A DNA stretch of 64,000 nucleotides, taken from contig CM063251.1 of the NCBI GenBank assembly GCA_032158295.1, forward strand, positions 17,113,425 to 17,177,424, in the 5' to 3' direction. The position numbers and the translations under genes are program-made. Of this stretch, positions 26,030 through 58,835 are shown in pieces; position 1 is the first letter of the stretch, and each line of letters starts with the position of its first letter. The notes below the pieces were generated by a model that had not been told where the DNA came from, did not search any database, and worked only from the letters and a program-made list of their open reading frames with translations. The stretch is from Pycnopodia helianthoides (lineage: Eukaryota > Echinodermata > Asteroidea > Forcipulatida > Asteriidae).

Positions 26030-26280
26030 AAATTGTCAAGTAATAAACCACAAGGGAAACTGACTGGGTAAATTTCAAATAGTATGGGGTTGAACAAAGA
26101 AAAATTGACTAGACTTCTGACTGGCACCCTTGAACAAAGATATTGACAAAATAGGGAGACCGCCAATATAGGGCTAGATAGCTCAGTTGGTAGAGCGCCG
26201 GTACGTTAATCCGGAGGTCGTTGGTTCAAATCCCGCTCTAGTCAATTTTTCTTTGTTCAACCCCATACTAAAAAAAAAAA
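26030..26280 (+). mobile_element. tRNA-like repeat R1, copy 1, with inverted tail
   Basis: The core 26172-26243 folds as a near-complete tRNA cloverleaf. The acceptor stem GGCTAGA pairs with TCTAGTC (one G-U), and the D arm GCTC/GAGC is perfect. The anticodon stem CCGG pairs with CCGG, the loop ACGTTAA has GTT in the anticodon position, and a B box GGTTCAAATCC is present. Position 33 is C instead of the universal U and the T stem has a mismatch, so this is a repeat-borne relic, not a working tRNA. The D arm and T arm resemble tRNA-Lys. About 30 bp flanking the core (26080-26112) recurs inverted at 26237-26270. Confidence 0.75.
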
Positions 26281-26404
26281 TTTGCAGAGCAATTCTTTGG
26301 TTGCTCACCAGCTTCATGGAGTTTGGCTAAGCTTATACTTACAGCCAAGTTTATAAATCAGATTTACACCACGGCTTGAACTCTTTATTGCAAACATTTA
26401 CCAT

Positions 26405-32489: not shown

Positions 32490-32840
32490 TTTATTTTTAG
32501 TCAAATTTTCATTGTTCAACCAAAAGTTATTTAAAATTTACCCAGTCAGTTTCCTTTGTAGTTTGTCACTTGATATTTGAAATAAAAAGTCGCGTCTCCT
32601 TTTAAGGTGATCCCTCTGCTGCTGTTTCCCAGGTGTATCATAAACGAATGTGATGGCCCTGACTATACGGCAGTTACAGGTTAATAAATGGCTTCTGCCT
32701 GGCATCCCGGAAAAAAAAGATATTGACAAAATGAGACCGCCAACATAGGATAATGGTAGAGCCCTTGTACGTTAATCCAGAGGTCACAGGTTCAAGTCTC
32801 GCTCCAGTCAATTTGTCTTTGTTCAACCCAAAATTTGTTT
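32490..32840 (+). mobile_element. tRNA-like repeat R1, copy 2
   Basis: A tail-type segment (TTGTTCAACC ... TTTACCCAGTCAGTTTCC, 32511-32552) precedes a body with AAGGTGATCCCTCTGCTGC, GGCAGTTACAGG and GAGACCGCCAACATAGG. The tRNA-like core follows (about 32747-32808, B box GGTTCAAGTCTC), then a second start of the tail (GTTCAACCC at 32821). The D arm is damaged in this copy. The spacing between tail copies is about 307 bp. Confidence 0.7.
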
Positions 32841-33712
32841 AAGCTTACTGTACAAGGCAAAACAATTGTGTAGACCTACAGAGCCATCAAAATGCTCATG
32901 GCCAATGTTTTCTTCAAAACTGTGAACCCATGTTTTAACACTAGGCTTATAATAATTTCAAATTGAATAGTTAACCTATAATTGTTCAAAAGTTGTATTT
33001 CATGTTCTATAGCAAGTTTCATATCTTTAGAAAATCTACTAAACAAAATTCCTAAAATATGTTCGAAGGAAATAATGCTTTCGACAAAACACTAAAACTT
33101 CAAGGTAAACATTCCACATGTTTTATACTGTTGAGAATTTTTTTTTCGAATTCCACCACTTTGCTTTAACATAGTCTGTTTAGATAAATCAACAATGAAT
33201 CGGTTGTTCTTATCCATTCTTCAAACTAAAATAAATGCGTACGTCTAGAGGAGAAATTCATAGCGTGTCTGCAGTGCCATTGGGTTTTAAATTCAAACCG
33301 AGTTTGGTTGTCACCGCCTTTTCTCAGATAGGATTTAGTTGACGATCAGCGGTGACAGGATCAGACATTCTTGAAGGTCTGATCATTGCGATTGGCGCTT
33401 TCGATTTAAAAGAAATGTGATGTCGTTATGCTTGTTGGAATGCTGTATAGAGACTCTTCAATCTAAGAAATTGTCTTTTCAGTGACGATGCTTTCGTGAC
33501 TTTTTTTGGGGGGTGAGAGATGGTCGTGGTGGGAAACATCCTTTGTGAAATAATGTTCGCCTGAAATGAAACAGTTTATGAGAAAGGAGTTAAATAATTC
33601 AGCCTTGATCTCGCGAGTCCGAAAAGCCGATGTTTGAAAAATTGTGTTTCTCGACCATGGCAGTAGTTTCAGACAGAAATAATGTCTCTGAGTCTTTATT
33701 GGAGGATTACGA

Positions 33713-33893
33713 CTTCAAAATTTAGCTGCTAGACTGGTCACATGCACTCGCCCACGTGATCATACAACTCCCATCCTACAAAACCTACATTGGCTCCCTG
33801 TTCAAGTTAGAATTCAGTCTAAAACTTCTCCTCCGAACTGTTCATTGTTTACTAGGCTTAGCTCCAGTTTATCTCCACATACGAATATGGTTT
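33713..33893 (+). pseudogene. LINE reverse-transcriptase C-terminal fragment, frameshifted
   Basis: The frame starting at 33716 reads QNLAARLVTCTRPRDHTTPI followed by LQNLHWLPVQVRIQ. This is the well-known segment C-terminal to the polymerase domain of CR1/L2/Rex-type LINEs (consensus around A-ARLV and LHWLPV). The match then continues in a different frame as KLLLRTVHCLLGLAPVYL, so there is at least one frameshift near 33810-33825. Only about 60 codons remain. The fragment is dead and lies in sense orientation in the Mox intron. Confidence 0.8.
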
Positions 33894-35081
33894 ATTATGG
33901 TTTAAACTTTATAATCATTGAACTCTTAGATTGAGACCGATCAACTTGATACCAATAAACTACAATCCTGTTTTAAAGGTCACTGTCCTCAACATTGCTG
34001 TAACATTTCATTTTTATTTTATAGTCTGACATTATTCTTCTTTAGTTTCAAGATGGTGAAGAAAAAGTTGACATCTTGAGTGTGAAAATTCCTATTATGT
34101 AACAGTATCCGCTCCGTGTCATTTGCTGGCCTATAATTCCTCTCACACTTCAGCGAGGCCCTGTGTCGGCGCACTGCCGTCGATCGTACGTGCCACCGCC
34201 GCATTCTCTCCCCCAAATTCCCGGTGACTTTATCGACGCAACCGGCCATCAATCTTACCTTTGCCGAATTAGTGTCACAATCTTCGGCATTTATTGTGTT
34301 TATAATGTGATATGGGTGACATGGCGTGTTTAACCTCAACTCAATTTGGACTTTTTTGTTTTTTTTTATTAAAGGCCGTTTTGTTCTTCCCATGCCACGG
34401 CTGGTCTTCTCCACCGGGCTTGGGGGTCAGTGTAGCTCCCGTATCACTACACCCGTACGTGACTCCCCCTGCCCTTTGGCACATGCTCGACAAATTTTCC
34501 TTGGGGGTGACGGGTTTTTCCTGAAACATTTATTGCACCCAAGAAAAATAACTTTGATTTATTCACATCATCAGTTTTTTTTCGCAAACAAGGGAGCAGG
34601 GAGATATGCGATCACACGGCGCAATGCATGATCGTATATAGTGGTAACGATAGCGAACATGGGTGTTGTACCCTCGCGCCTTGCCCGTGAAATGTCCCAG
34701 GCGACGGTCAAATGCCAAGCAAGGCAACATGATTCATAGCTCATTAGAGTATGAACATAACATTCGCTTCAAATTATAAAGGTCCAAGACTTTACGGACC
34801 AGTGTTTCTTACGGCTGATCATTGAGCAAGGACTCTATGGGCTGATGAACTAAACTCGAGGTTGTTTTATTAGAAATCAAAGGGCAAAATCACCTTGTCT
34901 TCAGATGGTAGTTTGTAATTAACTTGACCCTCGTTAAATTACAAGCCTCATTATCAAGATTCTTTTGATGAGGCAACTTTCTTTACGCATTTTATATAAT
35001 GCTGCCGAACAGAACGCAGAACATAACTGAGATCGAGTAACATGTATTTTTAAAGCACGGGCCCGATACTTAAAAACAAGC

Positions 35082-35215
35082 CCACTGAACCAAGCACATA
35101 CAAACAAGGTTACCAGACGAAATGCCATGTAATCGTTGTGACTTACCTGGTACTCTGCTTATTTCTGCTGAGCATATAAACTGGTTTAACAAGTTGTTCT
35201 GCTGAAACAGCTTTG
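35082..35215. mobile_element. MITE family M1, decayed copy
   Basis: Contains AAGGTTACCAGACGAAATGCCATG and ACTTACCTGGTACTCTGCTTATTTCTGCTGAGCA, matching the inside of M1 in reverse orientation. The ends are degraded. Confidence 0.5.
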
Positions 35216-36046
35216 GAATGAGACGTTAGTCTCACTTTTAGTTCATTCTTGAAGCCCTTAACATTTCTCGAAGAGGGCCCCTTTAAGAGCTCATTTTTGA
35301 AACTACGGCTTCGGCTTTGGCTCGGGCTCAGTCTCCGTCAGTCATTTTGAAAAAACGTGCACTTTCGATACGATGCTTCAAACAGATGGACGGGAGCCTA
35401 AGTTGAGCCCAAGCCCAAGCCGGGGTTTCGAAAAAACCTAGATCGAAATCAAGGATAGATCTTTCCTCTGTTATATTTTGCATTATATCTTTACATGAAA
35501 AAAAAACAATGTCAGTGAGCCAACCGAGGCCAGAACGAAAACAGTATGGTGCCGTAAGATCATTGAGGGTGTTAACTTCTTCCTGACAGGGAACCTGACC
35601 AAGGTGTCAGAACTATAATTTAAGTCTACAGAACTCTGCACAAACATTCACAATATTTAATTTGGTACTACTTGGTCGAGAATTAGTTCACGGACCTGGG
35701 ATTGTGTATGTTTTGCAGACTGGGGTCTCACCAACCGCCACTCCCAAACAAAAGAGGGCGCTATTATTGACCGTGAATACTCTTGCGACGAACTTTGGAA
35801 AAGCCAACACTGCCATCAGAAAATGTGACTTTGTAACTTTTTTTACTTTTCGGCAAAATGTTGAAATCATAACCAAACAAAATCATGATGTGGAAACCTG
35901 ATTCTAGAAACTAAGACCGATTCTTCCACAGGAGCAATTTTCTGTGGTCAAAAAAAAACTTGTAGACTTTACAATATTGGTTCCTGTGTTCTCAATGCAT
36001 TAATGCGTTTTAACTGAAAATGTATTTTGTCTTCTTCTTTTTAAAG

Positions 36047-36328
36047 GTGAAGGTATGGTTTCAGAACAGACGTATGAAGTGGAAACGATGCAAAGGGGCC
36101 CGCGACAAAGACCTTGCCGAGAAACGGCTTCAGGCGATGGAGGCCAAAATCGGCCTTCCGCCCGGCAGCTCTAGCGCCCTCACCGCTGGAGGAGCTACCA
36201 TGCCCGGACACGTGATCACGTCTAGAAACGGACTCAGAAGCCCGCACGAGATGAACGGGTACCCGGAGGACAGCGGTGGGCTGAGTCCTCCGGATAGCTA
36301 CGGGAACCCCGAGACCGATTTCAAGTGA
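36047..36328 (+). CDS. Mox: Mox/Meox homeobox gene, last coding exon (recognition helix and C-terminus)
   Basis: This exon completes the homeodomain with VKVWFQNRRMKWKRCKGARD, the DNA-recognition helix (W48, F49, Q50, N51 and R53 all present), in phase 0 with the donor after 24244. Q50 gives the usual Antp-class TAAT(T/G)(A/G) preference; this is family knowledge. After the homeodomain come a short basic stretch (DKDLAEKRLQAMEAK), then a tail of about 70 residues rich in Ser, Pro and Gly with SPPDSYGNPETDFK before TGA at 36326-36328. The tail has no further domain that I recognise and is somewhat longer than in vertebrate MEOX proteins. The acceptor is TTCTTTTTAAAG at 36046. A 162-codon open frame on the opposite strand is a shadow. 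Confidence 0.95.
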   Translation: MKVWFQNRRMKWKRCKGARDKDLAEKRLQAMEAKIGLPPGSSSALTAGGATMPGHVITSRNGLRSPHEMNGYPEDSGGLSPPDSYGNPETDFK

Positions 36329-36422
36329 AGATTTGTGTGTCGGACTGGCTGTGGTAACTCTACCATTTTTATCAAAAACACCCGTGTCTGTAAACTCTCC
36401 TCCGGTGGCTCGGGTCTTTGTA

Positions 36423-36428
36423 AATAAA
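36423..36428 (+). terminator. Candidate polyadenylation signal of Mox
   Basis: AATAAA occurs about 95 bp after the Mox stop codon. Other AATAAA or AAATAAA motifs follow near 36924 and 37428, so the real 3' end cannot be fixed from sequence alone. Confidence 0.35.
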
Positions 36429-39400
36429 CCTTGAAGGGGGAACATTGCGAGGAGAAACAAGTGGCTCAGGCTTTCTTCGATCCTCCACCAGTGCATATCC
36501 GCTATGTACTCGAACCGTTGAGGGCGCACTTCATAAAAACTCCTGTCATCCTACCATTGGCATGGGGACTGGCATTACATTTACCGATATTCATTTTTCG
36601 CTATACACTTCCACTGGTTGTCGAATTGTGGAGGTTGTGTGTATTTCATTGGTTGTGGGCATCAACAACTGAGTTTGTTGTCGTCGCCAGAGGGCCGAGA
36701 CGTGAACAGAGGCAGACTGGTCTACGGTGTTACGGGAAGCCATGTAAACATCTACGAGTCTCAAGCCTTTTTCAAGGAACCTTACGAAGAAGACGACGTG
36801 CATCCAGAATTAATCAAGAATATCGTGCGCGTCCCCACACTAACTCATCTTCCTCAGTGCTACCATTCTCACAATGACTCAGAAAGAAGACAGACTCACT
36901 CACATGTGCATGTTGATTGGTAAAATAAAATAAAAATCCCCACGATTAATATTAATTATCACGTTGAAACGCTTCCAACTCAAGCTAGCATGAGAAGACA
37001 ACATTTTGTGAAGCGCCCTCAATGTCTAAACTGCCGCCTCTCTACAGACACTCTAGAGCTTGACAAGTCAAGTGGATGAACTTTTACTGTGGTCCGATTG
37101 TAATTTCGAACAGTGTGATCACACCCTACTGTCCAAAGATGTCAAGTGATGGCACACTGTTTGGGAGGAAGTTTTGAAGCCATGACTTTCCACCGTTGCT
37201 TTGAACGGGGTGAGAATGGTTCAGTTTGCCATTGGCAGAGGTCTACCTTCATATCTTATCATCCAGAAGCACACCACAGCTTGGGGGTGATCAGTACTTT
37301 TAAACCCGGAAGTAGGTCAAGGGTAAACTTTAACCTCATGTGTTGGATTGGGCCATAGATACCGATCATTTCTGCGCCTATGGATTAGGTTTTAGAAAGA
37401 GAAAACATCAGAGACTCCATGACTGTAAATAAAGTATGTTGATGACGTGTACTTGTTCGAGTCCAAGTTGTTGAATAAGCAAACAAATGTTCTTAAAAGT
37501 AATGGCTGTCCAATTGTTATACATTTTCTTCTAGCAAAAGTTATCCATTGAAAACAAGGAATTGTCATAAAGATGCCACACGATTCGATTAGGATTAAAA
37601 CAGACCTTGTTTTGTTGCTCGTTGATTTACAGAGTATTAAAAAACTGGGGGAAATGGTCGTGACTTTGTATTTTATTTGACGAGCAAACGTTAGCAGGGA
37701 ACCAGTCACGAGCACCGTGTGCATTACACAATACTTTTCGCCTGGTAACCCGATTCTGCAAAGCAATACTTGTTGTGGAAGTGGGCCCTGCTTGCAGACT
37801 ATATTTGATTTACATCAAAGCGTGGAAGTGGAGGGTCCATAAGTTTGCAAGGAAATAGAACTCGGAAGTGTGTAGCAAGGGGTTAGTTATAGACCTTCTT
37901 TGTTGATCAACAAACCGCGCTTGTTGGCATGGAGGGCCGAATAGTAGCAAAACATTCAATCTCGGGTACAGATGTTGTGACCGAATTCAACATTTCTGCA
38001 AACTTTCAATACAAAAAATATACATCTTATGATTGGTTGCTGTTTCCAACAAGTTCAACACTATTTTTGAATATTATTGTGTAACATTGTTACAAACTAT
38101 AACTATCCGTTTTTTCTTTGTATTGATGGCTTCCCATAGTTTTCCAACCTTGGTTGGCAAAAACTTGGGCTGTGACTATGCAAGAGAAAGGTCTATCTGC
38201 TTTGAGGTAGTTCATGGACGGTGCCATTTTCTTATTAACTTTCCCGCTGATTTGGTTTATATTCCCGGACAGGAATATCACGTGTTGATGGCCCTTTTCG
38301 AAACTGCGGGTTGGGCTTGGGCTTGTGCTTGGGCTCCGTCCACCGTAAGGAAAGCCGTACACTTTACACATAACTGACAAAGCCTAAAAAGCCCAAGCAG
38401 ACACAGCTGCATCACCTCAGTGTTCTATTTCTCGTTGTTTTTTTATAGGTTTTAAATAATTGTTAGTCATTGACCGTCATCAGCCTCCGGTGGGATCCTA
38501 GTCTTGATTGGCGTTCATTTTGTTTAACGTAGTGCGATATCGCAACACGAATTACTGGAAAGAGATATCTGTATCACACGAACATTTGGATCAACATGAA
38601 CGTCTTGACGTTGTTTCGATCCAGATTTATAGACTTGCCCGGCCTTCTGAGTCAGCCTCCCATACAGTCAATGTAGCGCCCTCTACCGTTGGCTAATACA
38701 AACAAAAACAGCGTCGCCAATCAAGACTAGTGGGATCTGGAACTCTCAACCATGTAGTGGTTTGAATGTCGTCATAATGTACATTTTTTACCCAAGTCTT
38801 GCATCTTTCAGGCCTTATTGTTATGATTGTGGTGGAATGTAAATACTAAACATCGTCCTACGGGACGTTTATTTAAAAGGAAAAAAAAACAGTACGTTTT
38901 TTTTGTTTTATTATGTAAAGATAAATGTATTATATTTAACGCTTTAGTACACATGCCTCTGGTTTGAAAACAGTGTGCACAATGATATCATGACTCAATT
39001 CATGTTCGTGCTTCATGTAACATTAGGACTACATTGTATACTCCAAATCTAGTACTCATACAAACTAAGACGGTGTATTCTTTTCAAAAAAGAAAACTTG
39101 TGATTCTTTGAGTTTGAAGGGACAAGGGATTGGAAATGTTTTTGTTCAAACTACATTAAGATTAGGAAAAAACAAAAAGGACGATTTATCTTGCTCTTTC
39201 TGAAAACATTTTGCATGAGCTGTCACGACAGTCAACTTTATAAACAGCGAAACACGCGTAAAGACACGACACGTCCAGGATTATATTCACAGGTTTATAC
39301 TTAAAGTTTAATTTACAGAATTTGTGTTCCACTCCTAAACTATGAATGGAAGTTCTGTTCCAACAAAAATGGTTTCCTTCCCTCGAAGAGATCGAGCAGT

Positions 39401-39511
39401 ACTTTTACTTATGTGTACTATCTAATATCTGCTGCAGCTATGAAGAAATATCATTGGTTACTGCTATACGTTGACTTTGACTTGGAAGTGACAGTGCTTT
39501 GCTCTTGACCA

Positions 39512-39689
39512 GGGCCCAATTTCATAGAGCTGCTTTAAGCAGCAAATATTGCTTAACAATTTGCTACTAAGCCAAAATGAGCAGGATACCAGTCACAAAT
39601 TGTACATGTGACATGGTATTTTGGCTGGCAACCTTAGAGCTGTTCAGCATATTTTTAGTGTGCTTAGCTACTTTTTGAAATTGGGCCCA
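39512..39689. mobile_element. MITE family M1, best-preserved copy
   Basis: GGGCCCAATTTCATAGAGCTGC at the left and AAATTGGGCCC at the right, with AGCAGGATACCAGTCAC and TGTACATGTGACATGGTA inside. It serves as a reference copy for the family. Confidence 0.85.
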
Positions 39690-42326
39690 GGCGGCGAGCC
39701 GTGAGGGCTGGCTCGGCACACAATATTTTGAAAGTTGTGTATCTTTTGTCGCTAGAGGGCCCTGCAAATGAACGTCATTGGTTTTGTTTTATTGTGTATC
39801 GCCCTTTCAAACTGACCACCGTTTTGTATGGGCGGCCTCGAGCATCGAAATGTATAACGGGGTTCTTGACACCAATTTGCCCCTTTTAATAAAAATTTTA
39901 AAGAAAATTACATTTTTTATGGAAAAATATTTTGTACTTTTTTGTTTTGGGTAGCACAATTGGTTTATCAGTGATATTAAGGATAATTTGATAACATGTA
40001 CTATTAAAATAATAAGTTATTGTACTCCTTCCAGCTAGAGCACCCAGTACTTTTTGCCCAACAATGGTGGTAAATTGCGGCTGCGAAGTCGCGGTAGACA
40101 GGTCTTTACTGTATTACTTGTATTTTGATGGCCCCTCTCAAGAAAATAACCCAGTCATCAACACTTTACCTTATCTGAATATAGGTCCCTCATGCTATGA
40201 AACCATTACGTTATTGTACTGTACTCGTTTTTGTTGAACTATTCAATAAAATTTGTACTATAAGCTCTGAGTTTTAAATGGCCTCTTTTGTGTAGTTTTC
40301 TTTTTTTTTGAAGGTGTCATTACAAATGCGAGTCATCTCGCCCCTCAGCAAAGTAGCCCCATACAAAGTTGTCACATACAAGTCACCGCTATCAAACTCG
40401 CCCCCTTGCAAGCCTGTACCCACCCAGTTCCAAAATTGTTACCCTCAACACAGCCGCCCCCAACCCGACAAAGTCGCCCCCTAAATCAATTCTTGAACGA
40501 GCCGAATAAACAATGGCAGTCAATTCTGTGTGTAATGTTTGTACGACATTATACTCTATCCAGACTCTATCAAAATGAGAATGATATTTTAGAGGATCTA
40601 TTGGTACTGTGGTGGCAGAACCCCCCCCCCCCCCCAACCTGGTTCTAATCTCGCCTTCTTCACAATCTTCTCACCAACTCGTCGTTTTTACATCACGATA
40701 AAAATTTACCACAAGTATACGTGACCATTTTCTTTGTGCGCAAACAAACTTTGAAGACCTCTTTCAACAGAAAAACGAATATTTTTTCTCTTTACACCAA
40801 AATTATAGCCATCCTACTATTTGAAACCAAATTATTTGAAATCTAATCTTTGGTCAAACTCCCATCAAAGGCTAAACTTGTGGTGGACTCATAAAGGTAT
40901 ACTACGTCCACAGATGGTCCAAGTTTATTGTGTTTAAAAACGAAAATTAACGTTTCCGGCCGGGGCTGGTGCCTCGATCCTCCCTGTGAAACCGTTGTCG
41001 AGGGATGGAAAAAGGGAACAAGTTTCATGTTTCTGGGCTCCAGTGGGAATGGGGGTAATTTATGGTCAATAGAGCGCGTAATTGTTGTCAACTTTACTGC
41101 TGCTAGTGGGGTTGGGGGGGCGGAATTGGGTATACGGTACTCGTATCGCACAATGGGTTTGAGTGTGAGTAGTCTTTCATATAAAAGCTTTGTGTTTGTG
41201 TAGAGATGCAATCATGTCTGGTTTTTCGCTGTTTGCTGGGCTGCTCCACTGGTTGGAGGGGGGGGGTCAAAGGAACACTTTAACATTATTTTTTGTTGTT
41301 CACGATCTTACTTTATTTATTCATTTTTTTGAAGGGGGAAATGCATTGTTTGGCGATGTTGATTTAGCCTTTCATTATATGAAACCGTCAACACTATTCT
41401 CCTTCTCGATTTGGTTTGACTTTCAAGTCACCTTGCTTATAAATTTGATTATGAACATACAGCGCACAGACATTTGTCATTTGATTGGTGGAACAAGCGT
41501 CACGTGTCATCCATTATTTTGCCACGTATTCACTGTCGCGACGCAACGCTCCAAAAGTTAACAATGAGGGTCCAATAATGGATAACGTATCGGACGTTAT
41601 CCAGTATCGTTGCCAAACTAATCGTTCCCCGCCCGTTTGTCCACACGAGGCAACGTTGCGTCACGGCGGACAAGGTTGATGTCGTCCACGTTGTTTTAAA
41701 AAAAAAATTGTTTGGTTTATTAATTTTTTCGGAGTGTGGAGTGGATGAGTCTCCATGTCTGTTTTGTGTTTATTGTGGGGAAAAAATCTAAATGACAAGG
41801 ATCTATGTATGAGTTATATAAAACAAAATGCATTTCGTTCGATCGTGCACTGTCACAGCATGAGAGGTTGGTTGTGGGTCCTTTCTCTATGGTCACAGTA
41901 ACCACGAGCTGAAATCTGGCTTTTTACATTTCACTCGGCTTCCCCTCATGAAATGGAATAGTCCAGGTTTCAACTCGTACTTATATTATGCCACAAATGC
42001 GTTCATAACTAAGCAACCAATATCGGTATTATATTTTACACAAGGAACACCATTGCATTGCAACAGCCGGAAGGCTTGGGTTAAAAAGTGCGCGACACCG
42101 CAAACAATACCATGGATATTCAACCACAAGAGGGCGCCATTGTGCGAAAATTTGGGACAAACAGAAAATCGCATTTTGTGGCATAAAATTATTTGCTTGT
42201 TAAAGAACACAAATATTCAAAGGAAGCCCTCTCCATAAATAAATATTCATATAGTCTATATCACGTGTAATAATTGCGACATAATGCCACCATAAACCAC
42301 GCCCACTTCGTACAGAATTGCTTCTG

Positions 42327-42693
42327 TTAAAGGAACAGTACAGAATTGGTTGTTGCTAACAAAACAGTTGCTGGCAGTGTAAGCACATTATGTAATCCAC
42401 AATATACATAAACTGACAAACCTGTAGAAGTTTGAGATCGATCGGCCATCTGGGTCACGAGAAAATAGTGAAAAACCGATTACACATTTGCATGAAATCA
42501 TATAGGTTCAACAAATGAATTAAACGCTCACTGAGCGATAAACTCCAATCGGAAAATTAGTTTATTCATTTCTCATCAAATAGGCGTTTCAGACAGAAAT
42601 ATTTCATGGGATGTTTTCTACAGTTTTATGTAAATCTGTGATCAAAAATATTTTACAAGTTTTTTTCTTACCAATTCTGTAATGTTCCTTTAA
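42327..42693. mobile_element. MITE family M2, copy 2
   Basis: TTAAAGGAACAGTACAGAATTGG at the left and CCAATTCTGTAATGTTCCTTTAA at the right. High similarity to 9995-10377 across the whole length, apart from a missing block near the right end. Confidence 0.85.
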
Positions 42694-42924
42694 ATCTGAA
42701 GGGTAAAACTATTCAACATGTTGTTTGTTCCCTTGTTATGCTTCATTTCTCATCAAATATGGCGTTTCAGACAGAAATATTTCATGGGATGTTTTCTACA
42801 GTTTTATGTAAATCTGTGATCAAAAATATATTTTACAAGTTTTTTTCTTACCAATTCTGTAATGTTCCTTTAAATCTGAAGGGGTAAAAACTAATTCAAC
42901 ATGTTGTTTGTTCCCTTGTTATGC
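42566..42924. repeat. Tandem duplication of a MITE end plus flank (period about 177 bp)
   Basis: Starting with TCATTTCTCATCAAATA, the right half of the M2 element and about 45 bp of unique flank (ending CCCTTGTTATGC) are repeated directly at 42743. The units differ by a few short indels. The join lies between the flank end and the internal M2 sequence. Confidence 0.85.
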
Positions 42925-44146
42925 TAAGAATTCGGGACACGCTTAATGTCGACCCCTTCCGAATTGCAAGTGAAAACAAACTTTAGGTTTTTAAAAAACA
43001 CCTCAAGATTGATTACCTTGCCAGCAGCATGTGTTTATAGTGCCAGGTGAATATTCTTGACATGCGAACATATTTCTTGTTTATTGTTTTTTATTTATTA
43101 TTATTTATTTATTTTTATTTTTTAACATGGGGTTTGGATATTATTATTTGACGGTTAGCTGCAGTGGCTGTTATTATTAGCCGCGGGGAAAATATGGAGT
43201 CGGTGTGCGCCGGCTCGAACTTCGAGCACATACGTTATGGGAAACACTAAGTTATTATCTTTTTAAAATATAGTTTGTGTGATTTTCTTTTGAAACTCAT
43301 AAAATATTCACACTCCTGTCGAAAAATAACTATACTCACTTGTCAAAGAAACATTTTCACCTGGCACTTAATGGGCTTCCATGCGAATGTTACTAAATTT
43401 TTATTTTGGACTAGGGCGTGAACATCTGCATTATTCTGCACTTGCCAAACCGGTCTGCGATTCTAGCGCCCTCTACTGTTGTTTGCGTTGTTGGGCGTCT
43501 GAGCCATGAATTGGCAAAGTGTTTTCGATCACCTGAATTATAATGAAGAGCGCCGATGGGGAACTCGGAAATGTGAAGTGTGCACTGGACGCCATTTTAG
43601 AACTATAAGCAACTACTTTGATAGATTAGTGCAGATAGTGACCACTGCTGTCAAATAAAACATTTGCTTGCTGAAACTTGAGCGTCCATGCGTGTATTTC
43701 ACGTTCCAACAATGAGCTCCAGTTCCGGCGTGCGCCTTTGGTGTGGTATGGATTTTACTATTCAACTGGAGAAGAACTGCGAAGGCCTATGCATAACAAT
43801 AACGGTTAACATCTCAGCAATTATAGTTTTCTGGGAAAACATAGAGCTTCAAGAATGCATTGAGTACTCTGCAATTTTAGCAGTAGGGCTTATGCTCGTA
43901 CAAAAACCTAGTCTTCAATCAAGACCTTCGCTCTTCAAATTGGTATGACTCATTCATGCACATCTTGCTACAGTGCACAAATCACAACAATAGAGGGGCT
44001 ACTAACTGACCCAATCGTCGGCTTCCGAGTTCACGACACAGTTTGAATACTACTAAAAAATACAGAATATGAGCCGTTAAAAAATGTTGCTTATCCGAAA
44101 CACCAGTTGTTAATTAACATCTTCTGAGAAAGATAGATAACATATA

Positions 44147-44334
44147 GGAAAAACTATAAATAAATAATAGTAAACTTGCGGGTACAACAAATGTGTTTCT
44201 CCTGAAGACGAGCAGAGTATACTGTTCGAAACGTCGAGACCAAACCGGCTCTTCTCAGAGCCAACACTCAAACAAAAGAGATTTACACATGGTTGTACCC
44301 GTAAGTTTACTATTATTTATTTATAGTTTTTCCT
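44147..44334. repeat. Foldback element with hammerhead-like core
   Basis: Arms of about 42 bp: AGGAAAAACTATAAATAAAT at the left through GGGTACAAC, and the reverse complement GTTGTACCCGTAAG...AGTTTTTCCT at the right. The loop region holds the motif described at 44197-44239. A related element, with the core on the other strand, lies at 63408-63563. Confidence 0.8.
44197..44239 (+). ncRNA. Hammerhead ribozyme-like motif
   Basis: TCTC, then CTGAAGA, then C and a hairpin GAGCAG-AGTATA-CTGTTC, then GAAAC, GTC and GAGA. In hammerhead terms this gives a CUGANGA core, stem II, GAAA, a two-base-pair stem III (AC/GU), a cleavage-type GUC and a 4-bp stem I (TCTC/GAGA). The extra C between CUGANGA and stem II departs from the strict consensus, so activity is uncertain. 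Confidence 0.5.
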
Positions 44335-45174
44335 ATTTGTCCACACCATGCAAAGCTTCAAACAATATTTAAGATAGAAAACCTTTTGGACGAGGTTGAC
44401 CCCGAATAAAAGCTTATTTCTAGAAGACCAAAAAAGTTATGCCTAGTTAGAGGGTAAATGCAAAATACTTGTTGTCTGTTTATATATAAGTGTTGCAGGA
44501 TTTTCTGTTTCCCATCCTGCGAATTAATATTGTGCAGAAACTTCGTCTAATAGCGCCCTCTTTTGACTCAATTTCCTTCAGCCCATGTTATACTGCAGGG
44601 GGATGGATATACACACCGGGGATATGCAAAAATCCCCTATTTTTCTTTATGAATGTGGCCCATTCACACCACACACTTCATAAACAAAACCAATAACCAC
44701 GTACCCATCGAGGGAAGTTCAGTCGAGACGGATGGTTGTATTTTTGTTTCTAACGACACTCATTACACGGTTTCCGCGCGCACCTTTCTTGTGTAAACAA
44801 AGAGAAACACCGTGGAAATTAAATTATCCATACATTTTTAATGCTTCAAGTTAAGATTTGAATTTTACACAGAGATTTTGCCTGAGTAATGTTGAGTGTT
44901 TTAGAGATGAGAAGAAAGTGCGAACAACCATTTTGGAACTTCGTCACTCTGTTCTTCTAATTTAGCCTCCCCCCGGTTCTTAACCGCTCATCACCCATGC
45001 AAACATTATCGTTTACCCAACCCAGTTCCCTCGTTGAATACAAAATTATAAACTGAACATTAAGTGAACAAAAGAACTTTGCAAAAATTAGTCACACTTT
45101 TCGAAAATGCCCCAACGTCTTTGACTGAATGTATGGCCGTGGTGAGATAATAAGGCTGTACAATACAGTGTATC

Positions 45175-45300
45175 CGAATTGGGCCAACAGCTACGGCTAC
45201 GACTGTTGCTAAGGGTGATAAGGTCATCTTAAAGCATTATGACACGGCGATCCAGCCGTAGCCGTAGCCGTCGTAAGCTGCGATAGCCGTGAAGCACACA
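45175..45300. repeat. Foldback repeat with GGCTACGG / CCGTAGCC arms
   Basis: ATCCGAATTGGGCC...ACAGCTACGGCTACG on the left and CCAGCCGTAGCCGTAGCCGT on the right. Same style as copies near 23640-23770 and a fragment near 545-570. Confidence 0.6.
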
Positions 45301-46298
45301 TCAGCCTGAAACAAGGGTAGAAACAAGTCGAGTTGTGTACCCAGTGTTTATACCCAGGGTTTACCCTTAACGTGTAACAATGACTAGCTAACTGGTTCCG
45401 TTGGCTAGTTACTGAGTCTGTTTCCCCCCTTTTCTGTTTTTTTTCTCATCAAGTTCTTGACTGAACTCGGGCAATTCGTCTTTCGACGGGCTCTTTGGGA
45501 AAATAAACAAACCGTTCGTTTGGATGTCGTGCTTTAAAAGGTCAAGGTTTATAACAGAGTCTAGTTTTATTTCTTCAATTATTAATTCCTATTCTGACCC
45601 AGAAGCATGGACCATCAGAAAGGCAGCCGCCCTGATGTATTGGTGAGTCCATTCACACTCTCTAGTAAATCCGACTGATTCGCAGTTTCTTAGCTCTTTG
45701 TGAAATTGAGCCTGCATATGCCTAATAATTAGCACAAAGTGTGTCTCATAGTTTCGTACACAATCAAGTGGGCCTCCCTCCCCCACTCTATTGGTTGTTT
45801 TTTAATGCGACGGACAACGAGTTGATGTACACAGTAGTACGAGAGGATAATGTACATTCATATGTGCTTACATACACAATAATGTACATAATATTTGTGT
45901 AGATTTACAAACGTGTACCGAAGTGTGTTTCTTTCCTCAGTCAACAGTCAAACCGCTGAGCAACCGCTGAACTTCCTGCATTAAGTGCGGTCTAATTGTC
46001 TTTTTTTATGGTATAATTTTGTGGAGTATCTCGGCCGCAAATTAGTGCCCTCAATCCTGTGTATTTTAGCACAGTGCCACTGAGATTCTGAGTAATCCGT
46101 CAGCTCCGCCCCTTCCACGAGCCAACCCAAACAAATCATAACGGTGTGTACTTTGCCAATTTCACAGTACTGCCTGCTAGATCACCATGCAGCAATCAAC
46201 TAGATAAATCACAGACAGTCGCTGAGTTCAATCTACGGGCAAAAAACAAAAACAAACACACAGAAAACAAAAAACAAATACACTTCCTTGTAAAATAC

Positions 46299-46325
46299 AA
46301 ATAAATAAATAAATAAATAAATAAA
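46299..46325. repeat. (AAAT)n microsatellite
   Basis: Short run of AAAT units. Confidence 0.9.
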
Positions 46326-47267
46326 ACAAACATGAAAATTGGGTCTTTGCCAACTATGTACAAGGGTTGTTAACACTACAGGGATATCATTTCGCTATGC
46401 TGTACTATTTTTAGTATGATATAATTTGTCAGTGATTTTTTAACATGAATATCAGCTGAATGTTGATGTTGATGTTTTTGTGGGATTTTTTTCTTGTGGA
46501 TCTTTTTTCCCAATTGTGACTATTTGCGATTTGAAATAGCCATGACATTGTTTGTATTATTATTAAATAAATGTATATATTTTGTATTTTATTATTAATA
46601 TTAATAATCACGTAGTCCTACTGATCCCGTTTCGTTGTCCGCGTCGTGCGCACCGTACCACCAACTGTGGTATATACATGGATGAAGTAGAGCCTGTCGT
46701 CCCGGCCCAAAAGCCAGCGCGCGGACCTCCATTTCCTGTGCGCTCTGCTAAATCCTAACAACACTGCATTTCACCTTCGGTTGATATCACGAATCGTGGT
46801 AAATGCCTCTTTATGGATATCCACAGCCTTTCAATATTCCAACTGAAGTTTGCTCGCGATAAGATGTTTCCAAGGTAGGCCTTGGACGCCAGTTTAGGGC
46901 ATGTCCACTTTGAGCATACAGTATTTTGATTTAAAAACCCCGTACGAAAAAAATGTTCCCATTGATAAACCTACAAACGACGGGTCGGCATCCTTCATCC
47001 TCGTACGTAGAAATTAGCATAATAAAGAGGTCATTTAATCATTACAAGAAAATTACTCCGCGTTTGTTTCAAATCATGTTTATTTCAGTTTCTGAATCAG
47101 TCAGGGGATTTTACTCATTTTTATATTCTTTATTGTGATGATTTGTCATACTAATTTTGTTTTAAGAAGATTTTTATTCGTTAAAACACAAACGGCTATC
47201 AGAACATACACCGGGTGAACTACTTTTCGGTTATCAAATTTGTCGAGGTCATTTAGAGTAAAGTGGT

Positions 47268-47281
47268 TCAAGATGGCGGCT
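47268..47281 (+). promoter_or_regulatory. YY1-type promoter element, probable start region of the KMT2C/D gene
   Basis: TTCAAGATGGCGGCTG matches the YY1 consensus (AANATGGCGGC), which typically sits just downstream of the start site in housekeeping genes. It lies about 540 bp before the KMT2C/D start codon. The region between is relatively CpG-rich (for example 47500-47560) and may be 5' UTR. The ATG inside the motif opens a six-codon upstream ORF (47273-47293). Confidence 0.55.
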
Positions 47282-47815
47282 GCTTCAGAATAAACGTATG
47301 CAAGGGAAAATTAACAACGCTTTGTTTCAGTGAAAATTCCAGTAATGCCCGTTCAAATTGTGCTGTGGACGAACCGCTGTGTGGTAAATAATGTGCGAGA
47401 CGAATACTAGGGATATTGAAGGTACAATTTAAGGCGAAAATCGTCCGGTTGTAATCAAATTTTGCAGCTAGTCCTGGCGAATTATCCGAGGTCGTCAGCG
47501 GCGGGTGGGTACGGTGTGTGAACAGGAACGGAGGGGAGTTAACGACGCGACAGGAAAAGCTTATCGCTGGTGTGTATCGAGTACAGATTTTTCACGTTTG
47601 TTCATTTACACCTACCCAGGCTTAACAATTATTTCATCTCGTGAAGTTTCAATTGTGTAAGCTCCGTCGAAGTCTTCAATGCCCAGGGCAGGAAAAACAG
47701 ATTTTAACACCGCCGGAGACAAGAAGTTGTAAAACAAAACATCCCAGATTTTTACATCTGAATGTACAATGAAGCCTGTGTTCCATCTGTAGCCGTCCTC
47801 TCCTAGACGGCAGGC

Positions 47816-47822
47816 ATGTCAG
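47816..47822 (+). CDS. KMT2C/D (MLL3/4) histone methyltransferase gene, start codon in first coding exon
   Basis: ATG TCA G precedes a consensus donor GTAAGG. An in-frame TAG at 47804-47806 makes this the first possible start. The single leftover G joins GT at 56068 to give Gly, so the protein begins MSGRKKKFPRFKGETE. The upstream 500 bp is presumed 5' UTR. The full protein is expected to be a very large nuclear H3K4 mono-methyltransferase of the COMPASS-like complex; only its first roughly 250 residues are in this window. The start assignment rests on the splice phase and the lack of other upstream in-frame ATGs. Confidence 0.7.
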
Positions 47823-50800
47823 GTAAGGAAACATGATACAAATTCCTCTTTTTTAAATATGTTTTTATGTTTAAATATAAATATTTACAAAGACTTCCAT
47901 AATCAATTATGTAGGTTCTATCAAAATTATTGTGTGTAGACTGTGTAGGTTTGCGCTTAATTTAATTAAATGCAATTTCTTGGGGGTATCTGCAGTGAAC
48001 ATAACAATAATTACAATAGTTATGGTGAAGACAAATTCATTTGTTGATATTTTGTCGAGTAAAGCATGTAATTGTTTGTGCTGTGTTTAAATTTCACGGG
48101 TAAAGTCAAGACTCAAATTGTTTCGCCATAAAGATTTCAAATTGTGCAGAATCAGTACAGAATAACTCACACTAGTTGCGATAATCAGAACCCTTAATTC
48201 TTCCCAACAGTCGTATGTAGGACTGGAAGGTTACGTTGAACCATGATATTATGTACATTAAAATTTGGTAAATTTTGTTGACTCCTTTTTTCAATATTAT
48301 AAATGTATCCAATTGGGTACATTAAAAATGCGGTGAAAAAAAATTCCAGAAAAATGTGGCTGAATTCTAACACATATTCCATTGTAGCTCATTCTGAGAC
48401 AAGGGACTTGACCAAGAGCTATGATCATCGCAGCTAAAATAAAAGATATCTTCAACGCATAAAATACACAAACAAATCGTTCAAAATGACATTTTGAACA
48501 AAGCATAATTTCAAGGTCAGCTGGTGTTGTAAGTGTGTTATGAAACATCTTTGTACATGTACCTCTTCGAGTCGAGGGTTTCTGCGTCTTCACAATAAGT
48601 AGGCCTACTTGTACAAATGAGTCGTAGAATAAAATGAATCCACCCAACCCAACGGTAAGATAGACCACAAATCACAATGAAACCAAATTGCAATTACACT
48701 TTTTAAGATAATTGGACATTGCCGAGTATAATAATGTACAATGTCATTTTAAATTGTGTTGAGTTGTATTCCGCGTGATGAATTTGTATTAATCGTTAAA
48801 ACAAATTAAATTACAGACATGCTAAATAAAGATTTCTAGGCAAATTCCATAGCACTGCTTGCCGTGGATTTCTGCACTTCTGACGCCCTGTAAAGCGCAT
48901 GATTCTGCCGGCCATAAGCGCATACTTCCATGGTAAGCAGAATCATGAAATTGGGCCCTGTTCATTCTGAAATAGTTTTAAATGGTACACAGGGTAAACA
49001 AATTGGCAACAAATCTCTCATGTTGTATGCTGATTGCCTCCGACTGCGCAGCTCAGAGTAAGAAATTCCTTTACAAACTTAGAGTCAGCAGACCTATGAT
49101 TTGCCAAAATTTGTTCTTATTTAGATTTTTGCTAGATGTGATGCTGCTATTAAATGTGGGGGATGTGTATTTTAGCTCGATCGTGTCCGAACTCTAAGAT
49201 TTCTATTTGTGGTGATGTAGAAAGTTACATGAAATTTGTGATTCAGATCAGAGGAATCCATCTTTAGACGAAGATAAACGTACTTTAATTTCCCATGATT
49301 TTCAATTGTGCACAATCACATCCCTAGCCCCGGTCCAATGATTTTACATGATATAATTGGGAAAACAAACATGTTGTGCAGTATTTGCATGAACTGATCA
49401 ACTCAAATTTCAGAATAGTGTGAGCAGTTGTAACACCATTATGGAAGTGATTACTAAATCATCATAATTATGTTAAAATGCACCATTACTTTCAAAAAAG
49501 AATATACAAATTGTAAGGTTGGAGTCTAAAAATACAATTAATTCAGACCGTACATTTGTAGCATTTGCTATCTACATGTAAGAGCTACAAGCTACATGTA
49601 CTCTCACTTGTTTTTTTTTGCTGTTATTTTGCAGATTTTTCTGAAAACATACGGAACATACGTACATGTTGTACACGTATGCGATCTTTGGCTATTTGAC
49701 CTGTAAATGTGAACCTAGACACAGGCATTCTCTTAGTACCATGGGAAAGTAGCGTGTACCAGTTTACATAGGTACTTTGAGTGCTTAAGAAGCTCTATGA
49801 AATTAGGCCCAGTCTAGTGAAGGCCTGTGTTGCCTTCAGTGCCCAAAGACTGTGCAGGCTTCTGATGCATTCAAATAGTCTGACAGTCTGTAAATTGCAC
49901 TTTTTTGTTTCTTTCACATCCTGCTTGTATTTTAAAATGCAATGCTCACGGGACCAAATGGGTCCCCCCCAATTTTTTTATGCGCCTGAGACTTTCCCCG
50001 GTCTCTATTGCAGAGTGTTGCTTGGAGGGGATAATTGCTTGAATCATTTTTTCAAAATCCCTTCCCAGGCCTGGAATAACACGGACGCCATGGCCTCTGT
50101 TGCCCCTGGTCTTGGCCTTAGTGCCCCATCAAAAGTTTGCCGTATAATTTAAGATGTTGCAATGGAAGTGCTCTTTGCAAAATGAAAATGGCCTTGCCCT
50201 CTCAAAGATGAAATTCCAGGCCTGCCTTCCATGTAATTTTTGATCATGTTCATTATGATACAGTTGTAATAGAATTTTGATTGTGTAAATTGCACAGTCC
50301 GCCTTTCTCTCGGTTTAAAATTGAAATATTTAATCTCATTCACTTTTCCTTTCTGTATAATTTGATGTCAGTGGGAAAAGATCTATTGAAATAAATCTGT
50401 GAATAACAATGTACGTTTACAATGTCTGGGAGATTTCGGTGAATGCAATAAAGTGAATGTCCCAAATTGAGCGCGACATTGCGACACATAGCAAAACAGT
50501 AATACAATACTCTCCTGTTTTCAGATATTAAAATGAGAATGTGGTATTTGCAAGGCATCTGAGGATAAACTAATCACATTCTGGATTCAGATTACTGTCT
50601 TTATGTGATAACAATGCTGGACGGAAAAAGCAGGTCCCCCCCCCCCCCCCCGCCACACACGCAGACATTCGTTCGCAACAGCAATACCATGATTTTTTTA
50701 TCTTTGAGACTTTGGCATGTGACCTGTAAAATGAGAATTGTAAGTCTTGATATTTCTGGGTTGAGCCTCTTGTATGAGCATTTTTAAGTCAAGTGTGTTC

Positions 50801-52020
50801 TTCAGTACAATGTCGGTGTGTACATTTGCAGCCGAGCTCGAATTTGGGGGTAAAATTCTATAAGACCGTAGGGCTTGTAGTTAAAAAATGTTTACCGGAC
50901 CAGAATTAATTTTACAAGACCTACAAACAGTTTTTGTTTGAACGTGCGCTAAGAGAAGATTGATCTCATTTGTCTTTGGGGTAAATTTTGATACTCAACC
51001 GAATTGAAAGATACTTATCAGACTCAAAGTCAACATTTAAATTTACCTTTTTTTAAATTAAATATATTGCAGAATGAGGTATCATTATTCAATTGAAAAA
51101 CAACAGACTGCTGGACTTGTCTGGTCCTGAGTTTACTGGCCGGACACTAAAATCACTGGCCTTGGGCCTGCTGTCCAGTGCCAAATTTGAGCCCTGTGTA
51201 GTTGGGACAAACAAGTTGTTGTAGCGTTGTGTTCTAAGTTTCCGCTGAAAAAGGCGATCCCCCTGACGACTTAATAAAAATTTAGGATACATTGGGTGGG
51301 ATTGGTCAGAAAGAATCACGTTCACATTAATACGCACTAGATCATGGTGAAAAGTCTCTGGGTTCTTCTAGTTGAGTCCCATTTTTTCTTCTAGCTGTGA
51401 AATATTTTCAGTAAGTTTCAGGACCTTACACGTAATGGTTTCGTAACTACACTCACTAAATTTACCATTGTGCATACTGAGTGGTTGCACGAAGTCAACA
51501 TGCTGTGATGAAGACGCTATTTTTTTGACCACATGCACGGTTGTGTAAACAATTTTTTTTAACCCAGTTAGGCCTGGAATTACACATTTTTTAGGGCATG
51601 GCCACTTTGGCCTTGGAGTATTTAAAATTTTGGAGGGCACCAAGGCCAGTAAAAAGGGCACCAAGGCCAAAATGTGAAAAATAATAACAAGCACAAAGGC
51701 CACTAAGTTATGAAAGTTATAAAACAAAATACAACCAACGGTGAACTACTTTGTTGATTCATTAAACAGGCCTCCTTATTGAATAAGTGTCCACCAGAAG
51801 AGGGCGTACGAAATAACAGAGCGCCCTCTGTTGGTCAGTGGTTTTTGTTATAGACTGGCCCTTTGTTTAAGGACGTCTGGTGTTCGTGAACAACGGGTGC
51901 ATACACTGTTTGCAACTGATAAGACGGTCACGGTAGCAGAAACGTTAATAATTTTTGCTACAACTTTAACATCGTCGGCTAAAAACTAAAACAAGTAAAT
52001 ATTTTACTTTCATTAAAAGT

Positions 52021-52098
52021 GCAAGACGGCCAACGGGGGAAAGGGCACAACGGCCAACGGGGGAAAGGGCACAACGGCCAACGGGGGGAAAGGGCACA
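52021..52098. repeat. 24-bp tandem repeat, three units
   Basis: Units of GGCCAACGGGGGAAAGGGCA type repeat three times. Related motifs (GGGCACCAAGGCCA) lie at 51640-51680 and GGGCACCACGGCCAG near 52132, suggesting a larger decayed repeat around it. Confidence 0.85.
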
Positions 52099-53059
52099 TC
52101 ATTTTGGTCATGAAAAGCGCATTTTTTAGAGGGGCACCACGGCCAGTTACAAGGGCATCGACAGCACTGGCTGTCATGGCTGTCGTGTAGTTCGAGGCCT
52201 GAACCCTATATTTTGTGTCTGAAACGGACGGTAACACGTGTAACCGAGCATTTCAGAAACCATTACACGATCACAAAAATAACCATAAACGCACAGGCTT
52301 AGTTGATAAAGTTACCAGTAACTTAACATACGCCAACTGTAGTAAACATGAGTGGTTTTCCCAATACCCTTTACATGTACAGTGTATTGTGTGTGTTCGT
52401 TGTACGTGTGAACATGAATGTACAGTGTGTACATTGTGAATGAATGTCACCGCAAGTGACCCTTTCCCAGAGTAGAGTACATACATCATACAAATACATA
52501 CGTGTATGATTCAATCACAGAACGTGTTACACTACAGGCATGGGTTCTTGGTATATGAGCCTTGCTCTATGGTGTGAGTTTGTATTTAAAATGTGCTGCA
52601 GTGTGTGTCATGTCAGCCTACACACATGCATGTACTGTGTACATTCATAGTAAATTCATCTGTGTGAGCTGTACCCGCTTATTGAAATACATGTAATGTA
52701 CAGCGTGCACCGGTTACATTACAGGTTTGCCCACAACAGTTCATTATGCACGGACATGGGGGATGATTATTGGTAATATGTACATGATAATCTCATTTGA
52801 ATAGATCTGCATTTCAAATTGTCCTTCTGAGCAGACAAATTGATGTTACAATATACAACGTACACCAAGTGTACGTTAGTTATACCATGGAGGATACAAG
52901 GAATAACCTCCAACCAGTCCACAGTAAACAACTAGGAGGCACTAGAAAGAGCCCTGATATTTAAAGGGCATTAAATTTGAGAAAATTGCCACAGAACCGT
53001 ACTACTTGTGGACAATGAAATAGTTTACATTATTTAACATTTTTTTTATAATTAAATAT

Positions 53060-53441
53060 CAATTAATAAATTAGAAGGGAAACTGACTGGGTAAATTTTA
53101 AAATAATTTTGGGTTGAATAAAAAAAACTGACTAGAGTGGGACTTTAACTGAGGACCTCCGGAATGAAAGTGCCGTGCTCTACCATTAATAGCCGTAATG
53201 TTGGTGGTCTCCCTATTTGTCCAATACCTTTTTTCGAGGATGCCAGTCGGAAGCCACTCAACCTGTAACTGCTAAGTAGCCAGGGATCACACCCAAGTTT
53301 ACGATACAACCTGGGAAGTGGCAGGAGAGGGTTCACCTTATGGGGGAATATGGGGATGCAACTTTTTTTTATTTCAAATACAAATTAATAAACCACAAGG
53401 GAAACTGACTGGGTAAACTTGAAATAATATCTGTTCAACCC
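53060..53441 (-). mobile_element. tRNA-like repeat R1, copy 3, with terminal direct repeats
   Basis: On the minus strand: tail (GTTCAACC ... TTTACCCAGTCAGTTTCCC, 53441-53383), body with AAGGTGAACCCTCTCCTGCC, GCAGTTACAGG and GGGAGACCACCAACAT, a tRNA-like core (about 53196-53131), then the tail again (53121-53060). The two tail copies are about 322 bp apart. The layout matches copy 2 at 32490-32840, so this is the family's structure rather than chance. Confidence 0.8.
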
Positions 53442-53979
53442 CAAATTATGCTCTCATTCTATCACATAGTTCTGAAAGGGCCCTACACAATGTACATGTA
53501 GCAAAGTAGCAGTCGCGAGATAACGAAGGCTAGCAGCCTGTAAGATATTACTGGAAACATTGTAAACTGCTTTTGTGTCGCAAAGTGTAGTGCGCTGATC
53601 CCAATGTGGTCTGCATTTTGCGGCACTTTCGAGTGAAGGTAATAACGGTTATCTGAGCTGTAGAAATGTAAACGCGCAACCGAACGATCAGTTGGTTAAC
53701 CATGTAACCAGCGCTGGCTCACTTTATAAATTACTTAATAAAAATACACTACAAACAGCACTCTATGTAAAAATTAAAACTAATTTGTGCAAGAGAGAAA
53801 GGGTTAGGAATTCAAGCTTGCTATGGCGATGTAAGGCATTCGTTTGTATTTAAAGAGGTACAATGTACATGTAGTACATCGGTAAAATTAAATGACTGTA
53901 CATACTTGTATGTTGAAAATATGTTTTGTATAAAAATGTGTCGTTTTAATTGATTATGATAACAAAATTAAAGCAAGCT

Positions 53980-54050
53980 CTATGGTCTAGTGGTTGAGGC
54001 GTCTGCTATAGAATGCATGGGTCGTGGGTTCGAATCCTACTCGAGCAGTA
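53980..54050 (+). repeat. tRNA-like sequence (A and B boxes)
   Basis: TGGTCTAGTGGTTGAGGC resembles the A box of tRNA-Glu/Asp/Gly types and GGTTCGAATCC is a perfect B box. The acceptor stem is partly paired (GCTC/GAGC) but the anticodon stem does not pair well. It is most likely a tRNA pseudogene or SINE head, not a functional tRNA. Confidence 0.55.
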
Positions 54051-54883: not shown

Positions 54884-55401
54884 TTAACACGTTGACTGCC
54901 GGTCATATCTTCGTAGGGCGTTCGTTCCCATTTGCCAAGTGCGGTGCGCATTTGCGCATACCAGCATACCAACTAGGTACTTTGACCCCTAAAAATTGAA
55001 CATACACATTCTAAGGATGCCATGTCCTCACCACTGCCAGAAGCGTATGTGTTGCGTGCTCAGTGATGCCAGTGTATTTAAATAACAATACAAAGCCCTT
55101 TCATTCTCTACGAGTATACTCGTAGCACTTGCAGAATCCGTTACGCTGATAGTACGAATATACTCCGAGGGCTACGAATATACTCGTAGGCGGCTACGAA
55201 TATACTCGTAGGCGGCTACGAATATACTCGTAGGCGGCTACGAATATACTCGTAGGCGGCTACGAATATACTCGTAGGCGCTACGAATATACTCGTAGGC
55301 GCTACGAATATACTCGTAGCGGCTACGAATATACTCGTAGGCGGCTACGAATATACTCGTAGCGGCTACGAATATACTCGTAGGCGGCATCAACGTGTTA
55401 A
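54884..55401. mobile_element. TTAA-flanked MITE (piggyBac-like) filled with palindromes
   Basis: Both ends are TTAA followed by CACGTTGA-C-TGCCG (left) and the reverse complement CACGTTGATGCCG (right). TTAA is the target site of piggyBac-type transposases. There is no ORF. The right half (about 55109-55385) is made of tandem 18-nt palindromes (next entry). Confidence 0.8.
55109..55385. repeat. Satellite-like array of CTACGA-ATATAC-TCGTAG palindromes
   Basis: About ten near-identical CTACGAATATACTCGTAG units plus one degenerate copy (55152) and one outlier (55109), spaced 20-23 bp apart by GGCG-type spacers of slightly varying length. Each unit has perfect 6-bp inverted arms (CTACGA/TCGTAG). 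Confidence 0.95.
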
Positions 55402-58779: not shown

Positions 58780-58835
58780 ACAAGTAATAAACCACAGGGG
58801 AAACTGACTTGGTTAATTAAAAAAAAAAAAAAAAA
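58780..58835 (-). mobile_element. Tail fragment of the R1 tRNA-like repeat
   Basis: CAAGTAATAAACCACAGGGGAAACTGACTTGG matches the R1 tail in reverse orientation and ends in an A-run. No tRNA-like core is present. Confidence 0.65.

Follow-up and report, generated by a model that had tools for sequence, protein, structure and literature searches.

A short tRNA-carrying repeat of Pycnopodia helianthoides and its possible mobilisation by Penelope-like elements

In the parts of the cited papers drawn on here, a transfer RNA (tRNA)-derived short interspersed element (SINE) is described as having its tRNA head at the 5' side, with an RNA polymerase III (pol III) promoter about 10-15 nt from the 5' end (PMC8969392), and Helenus, present in six animal phyla, as holding a tRNA-like sequence inside its long terminal repeats (LTRs) (PMC10886601). 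A typical Penelope insert is depicted there as an open reading frame (ORF) between two direct pseudo-LTRs (pLTRs) with an adjacent inverted pLTR, one inverted pLTR optionally bearing a tail of about 31 bp; the example given has a 9-bp duplication, and in a further case, with a duplication of 8 bp, Penelope ends had transported a gene unrelated to them (PMC3846280). Penelope-like elements (PLEs) are reported to start copying within the RNA, at two neighbouring sites that lie in an AC-rich stem loop, and to cut AT-rich DNA and extend both strands (PMC11167929), while animal retrozymes measure about 150-300 bp and contain type I hammerheads (PMC7761336). Here we compare with these systems a dispersed repeat of about 310-320 bp in a 64,000-nt stretch of the genome of Pycnopodia helianthoides (assembly GCA_032158295.1, contig CM063251.1, positions 17,113,425 to 17,177,424 of the forward strand), hereafter called the window, in which positions are counted from the first letter. 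The element is known from three copies (A, B and C) and one tail fragment (D), all within this window, whose GC content of about 40%, plentiful dispersed repeats and lack of stop-to-stop frames longer than 169 aa give it a eukaryotic look. Judged from its sequence, its end pattern appears nearer to that of Penelope-type retroelements than to that of ordinary tRNA-derived repeats, and we tentatively favour the possibility that it is a short non-autonomous retroelement that transports a tRNA gene as its cargo and relies on a PLE, whose reverse transcriptase would copy it in trans.

Copies A (32498-32846, plus strand) and B (53047-53450, minus strand) are built in the same order, namely a left tail (T1), a body, a tRNA-like part and a right tail (T2), the tail T itself being composed of two parts, Ta and Tb. 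The two copies are 73% identical across 352 aligned columns (BLAST E about 6e-51), and their local alignment score of 142 compares with a maximum of 21 among 300 dinucleotide shuffles, which establishes as real the shared layout claimed in a preliminary description of this DNA; the tail-to-tail distances given there, 307 bp in A and 322 bp in B, were likewise recovered. A unit consists of a T of about 80-90 bp, a body of about 160 bp and a tRNA part of about 60-73 bp, with an identical junction between T and body in A and B. In copy A, T1 (Ta then Tb) occupies 32498-32590, the body 32591-32748, the tRNA-like part 32749-32805 and T2 (Ta) 32806-32846, with a fuzzy right edge between 32838 and 32846. 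In copy B, the direct T1 (Tb) lies at 53367-53424, the body at 53198-53366, the tRNA-like part at 53137-53197, and T2 (Ta and Tb), followed by A-rich sequence, at 53047-53136, all on the minus strand; an 18-nt piece of Ta (53432-53449, plus strand) is inverted at the left edge, with an E value of 0.011 for the window and a position next to the element. Copy C (26035-26268, plus strand) comprises an inverted left tail (Tb and Ta, 26035-26113, minus strand), only the last 58 bp or so of the body (26114-26171), a tRNA with an intact fold (26172-26244) and a short right tail made of Ta only (26237-26268), which is counted from the acceptor strand and thus overlaps the tRNA. The inverted tail noted earlier in the copy near 26030-26280 is the left tail of C, 83% complementary to copy A (26031-26111 against 32498-32578). 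Fragment D (58781-58818, minus strand, E 4.6e-9) is an isolated Tb; this fragment and the inverted piece of B add to what had been described before. The outer ends of A, B and C were set by eye.

The tails deserve particular attention. With T positions numbered from the 3' acceptor strand of the tRNA, Ta runs to about T+34, where it ends after an AC-rich stretch, and Tb runs to about T+78 in C and D, or to about T+90, A-rich, in A and B. The outer ends lie at T+3 (left) and T+33 to T+47 (right, fuzzy) in A, at T+35 (left, inverted) and about T+90 (right) in B, and at about T+79 (left, inverted) and T+32 to T+34 (right) in C. Tb, of about 50 bp, thus stands at one of the two outer ends of B and C and is absent from the other, an observation drawn from three copies. 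T contains all five ends that were counted for A, B and C; under random cuts of the unit, the p value is 0.001-0.003, calculated post hoc on three copies. A direct T is found at both ends of A and B, and the left T of C is inverted instead, so that two of the three copies, B with 18 nt and C with a full T, have an inverted T or piece at the left. The LTR-like direct end repeats proposed in the preliminary description therefore hold for A and B; the tails are partial at several places, variable and sometimes inverted, however, unlike LTRs and like the pLTRs of Penelope. In C, the inverted and the direct Ta are identical at 34 of 34 positions (up to 26270) and share a variant unseen in A or B; because of this identity and private variant, both were probably copied from one source.

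A further clue lies at the start of T1, which opens with bases of the 3' acceptor strand of the tRNA: all 7 nt at the inner end of the inverted tail of C, and 5 nt (TAGTC) in A, this end being lacking in B. Since a tail simply joined to a body has no reason to contain tRNA bases, T1 was probably preceded by a tRNA in the template too, as in a tandem or circular RNA. Both the short terminal-repeat retroelement and the circular or tandem intermediate suggested earlier fit these observations. Because A and C both end within the acceptor strand, it may be that the tRNA fold brought copying to a halt, but a fixed boundary of the LTR kind would account for these end points as well.

The tRNA-like part is internal in all three copies, lying between body and tail and starting, as counted from the left end, about 250 nt into A and about 140 nt into C, a position that the preliminary description had rightly set apart from that of ordinary SINEs. 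The tRNA of C, with anticodon GTT, is recognised by ARAGORN and by Rfam (RF00005, 56 bits), whereas the corresponding parts of A and B were not called as tRNA. By pattern, C has both promoter boxes, A has box B only, and B has neither. The gap that removes part of box A has the same right-hand edge in the alignment of A and B, with 11 and 6 columns missing, respectively. This common loss fits a subfamily that spread without box A, although the two copies may have lost it in parallel. One base past the tRNA of C, a T5 run (26246-26250) begins. Such a run is a usual pol III terminator, and a tRNA-driven transcript of C would therefore exclude the body and Tb. With box A gone from A and B, and with the T5 run just past the tRNA of C, the element probably transports its tRNA as cargo and does not use it as a SINE head; the same two features speak against spread as a pol III unit, as had once been proposed. 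Elsewhere in the window, a second tRNA-like stretch at 53976-54048 (plus strand; Rfam tRNA, 26.6 bits, under the gathering score of 29) may be the head of some other, unrelated repeat that derives from a tRNA.

Copy C is also flanked by a 14-bp AT-rich repeat with one mismatch (13/14), a candidate target-site duplication at 26021-26034 and 26269-26282. In tight windows, an equal score was reached in 1 of 400 random and in none of 400 AT-matched flank pairs.

Two other elements of the window are relevant to the machinery that may be involved. P1 (44140-44340, plus strand) and P2 (about 63393-63578, minus strand) are related to each other (140 of 159 aligned positions, from the core through the 3' end), and each contains a match to a hand-written hammerhead core pattern, at 44202-44233 and 63504-63535, respectively; the window holds two more matches, at 57834-57873 (probably due to chance) and 5591-5622. 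The hammerhead-like core of P1 and P2 has an extra base beside stem II. The left side of each repeats, in inverted orientation, the 3' end of the same element, over different lengths (53/56 and 30/36 identical positions); in sequence terms, this is the same kind of signature as that seen in B and C. Both also show a hairpin resembling the histone 3' untranslated region stem-loop (RF00032; 31.1 and 24.5 bits, under the gathering score of 34). Further motifs of the GAAACGTC type, resembling those of P1 and P2, occur at 5591-5622 (minus strand), 20893 (plus strand) and 62059 (plus strand), one of them with the full core pattern.

Mobilisation in the manner of PLEs may be pictured in five steps. 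A transcript longer than one unit would be produced from a tandem locus or a circle by outside promoters. An enzyme would then cut AT-rich DNA and start within T, near T+34 or the end of Tb, where ends are indeed observed. Copying would proceed through the tRNA, the body and the next upstream T and, in A and C, would stop 5-7 nt into the upstream acceptor strand, the end points being those observed and their cause conjectural. The other DNA end would also be primed inside T, or the new strand would fold back, leaving the left inverted T or piece that is present in B and C. Finally, repair would yield an AT-rich target-site duplication, for which C offers a candidate. In line with this scheme are the T-body-tRNA-T unit with its constant T/body junction, the direct copies of T that bound A and B on either side, the inverted T or piece at the left of B and C, the identical Ta pair and candidate AT-rich duplication of C, the acceptor-strand starts of C and A, the box A loss shared by A and B, and the inverted 3' ends of P1 and P2. 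The Tb at a single outer end of B and C may correspond to the optional tail of an inverted Penelope pLTR (PMC3846280), and the internal start sites, AT-rich cutting and two-strand extension reported for PLEs (PMC11167929), as well as the unrelated gene moved by Penelope ends (PMC3846280), point the same way.

Several observations weigh against such a scheme. Copy A has no inverted piece; there are three copies only, their outer ends are placed by eye, and no reverse transcriptase partner was seen. The two tails of A (31/36) and those of B (52/61) are no closer to each other than tails of different copies are, which appears neutral or slightly against a common source. When wider windows were used, the top score among 150 controls (11.0) was higher than that of the C duplication (10.5), and no duplication above control was found at A (7.0; best 7/7, inside T2) or B (6.0; best 6/6), the 95% point of 150 controls being 8.0. 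Neither the core pattern nor Rfam, among matches with E up to 5 for A and B and up to 10 for C, revealed a hammerhead in the three copies, nor did Rfam list one anywhere in the window at E up to 10, P1 and P2 included. Because Rfam lists none at P1 and P2 either, its silence on the three copies is a weak negative; for the same reason, both PLE-style mobilisation and the wider route considered below are rated as less probable than they would otherwise be. In view of the hand-written pattern and of the extra base beside stem II, the label of PLE for P1 and P2 is presumptive and unproven. T is not similar to either of them, since 114 and 31 of 200 shuffles, respectively, reach its score. T as a part of P1 or P2 is thus rejected, and these two elements show at best the type of machinery and not the partner. 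As to other ribozymes, no Rfam family of this kind appeared among the matches to the element at these E values, a weak test. The element is likened to a PLE or a retrozyme in its supposed working and is classed as neither, because no hammerhead was found in it and no partner was seen.

Among the alternatives, a tRNA-SINE of dimeric or nested build, mobilised by a long interspersed element (LINE), is unlikely but must be taken seriously. The unit would be body-tRNA-T with an A-rich tail, which entered the A-rich end of an earlier T or became fused with it, and C would be a twin-primed insertion. T does end A-rich, the duplication of C adjoins an A-run, and twin priming yields 5' inversions in LINE insertions. 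Read as a nested insert, B has 10 of 10 matching A-rich bases on its two sides; this match is to be expected because both Ts end A-rich, but it leaves the alternative in play, and in A it reaches only 5/5. Moreover, the T/body junction is the same in A and B, the tRNA is not 5'-terminal, box A and the T5 run stand as described above, and neither the acceptor-strand bases with which T1 of A and C opens nor the inverted piece of B is explained. A plain SINE with a 5' tRNA head was rejected outright, since the body precedes the tRNA in every copy.

It is improbable that the copies derive from a satellite-like tandem repeat, or from an excised circle with a tRNA gene, of which bits just over one unit long were reinserted. 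Direct terminal repeats spaced by about one period and the acceptor-strand bases at the start of T1 would follow naturally, and the idea was already present in the preliminary description. The window, however, holds no tandem array of the unit, random cuts would rarely place all five ends within T (with the reservations given above), and an inverted T is not predicted.

A metazoan retrozyme, that is, a circular RNA with a hammerhead, possibly moved by a PLE, whose ribozyme has decayed or belongs to an unlisted type, seems very improbable. Unit size (about 150-300 bp in animals), repeats and a possible dependence on PLEs are similar as far as the relevant parts of the sources go (PMC7761336, PMC8969392). 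Against this, Rfam recognised no hammerhead in the three copies, and CUGANGA occurs once in the element, opposite the tRNA part of B. In addition, T folds no better than shuffled sequences (z 0.01, 1.28 and 0.40), and a structured RNA was rejected for T on these values.

Least credible, and rejected, is a terminal-repeat retrotransposon in miniature (TRIM) of the Helenus kind, a miniature LTR retrotransposon with a tRNA, which would account for the shortness, the direct terminal repeats and the tRNA-like sequence, but here the tRNA is placed between the two repeats instead of within each, neither a TGG-type primer site behind T1 nor a purine tract ahead of T2 was seen by eye, the candidate duplication of C measures 14 bp in place of the 4 bp of such elements in animals, and B and C have inverted repeats.

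Of the 25 stop-to-stop frames of at least 120 aa in the window (the longest of 169 aa), seven were compared with Pfam and none matched; a 77-aa translation of copy A gave two candidates, none at E of 0.01 or below. Profile searches of the window with Tb, Ta, body and tRNA returned, beyond A to D and the inverted piece of B, only matches with E of at least 0.32. Patterns of T and body found no stretch in viral contigs, nor patterns of T in genome contigs, these viral or prokaryotic collections being little informative. Fragments of the element sequence had no match in the literature, where no PLE-mobilised tRNA-carrying element was found, judging by the titles and openings of abstracts of the papers listed.

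The window contains other repeats as well. A 208-nt inverted repeat (61825-62032 and 62423-62630; 100% complementary, 390 nt apart) looks recent from its sequence and has a GAAACGTC motif just inside its left arm. A minisatellite at 55153-55388 comprises 11 copies of the 22-bp unit TACGAATATACTCGTAGGCGGC, and long hairpin repeats of the ACTTAGGACTAGTCCTA kind, with arms up to 99% complementary, lie at 4158-4309 and 13543-13710. A 37-nt stretch of a dispersed family with GGCCCAATTTCATAGAGCTGCTT-like ends occurs five times, starting at 6339, 16355, 39499, 59158 and 61482.

More generally, a family of tRNA-carrying short elements might spread by Penelope-type reverse transcription of an RNA that is tandem or circular, each copy stopping where the tRNA fold dictates, a doubtful but conceivable route beside those of LINE-dependent SINEs and LTR-dependent Helenus. 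If PLE-style mobilisation were true, some tRNA-containing short repeats that would pass for SINEs may owe their mobility to Penelope-like enzymes, tRNA genes would be multiplied as cargo of PLE-type ends, and tRNA-gene counts may be inflated by such elements. These elements would also provide natural substrates of the poorly known PLE integration cycle, with its two start sites, strand switching and tandem template.

Set against known systems, the element is closest in its ends to Penelope/Poseidon-type PLEs and the genes that they carry, with which, as far as the consulted portions of the literature describe them, it shares direct terminal repeats, an added inverted repeat on the 5' side, 5' truncation, a partial-tandem make-up and, going by the candidate duplication of C, an AT-rich target. 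In those same portions, the optional end extension of PLEs measures about 31-40 bp, against about 50 bp for the Tb at one outer end of B and C among three copies, and their duplications 8-10 bp, against 14 bp for the candidate of C; T, at about 80-90 bp, is also shorter than the roughly 200 bp found in PLEs. Unlike a PLE, the element has no reverse transcriptase/endonuclease ORF and no detected hammerhead, and its interior is a tRNA gene. Metazoan retrozymes resemble it in their short unit, tandem or circular template and possible PLE dependence, but their type I hammerhead in each unit was not detected here, where a tRNA gene is present. Like Helenus (TRIMp3), it is short, with direct terminal repeats and a tRNA-like sequence; its tRNA, however, lies outside the terminal repeats, T1 of A and C repeating only 5-7 nt of it at its start, no primer binding site or polypurine tract was seen by eye, and its ends can be inverted. 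With tRNA-derived SINEs (SINE2), finally, it has in common a tRNA-like part, an A-rich 3' end, a length of about 350 bp and dispersed copies, while it differs from them by a tRNA that is not 5'-terminal, by the box A missing from A and B, by the T5 run directly past the tRNA of C, and by tails on both sides.

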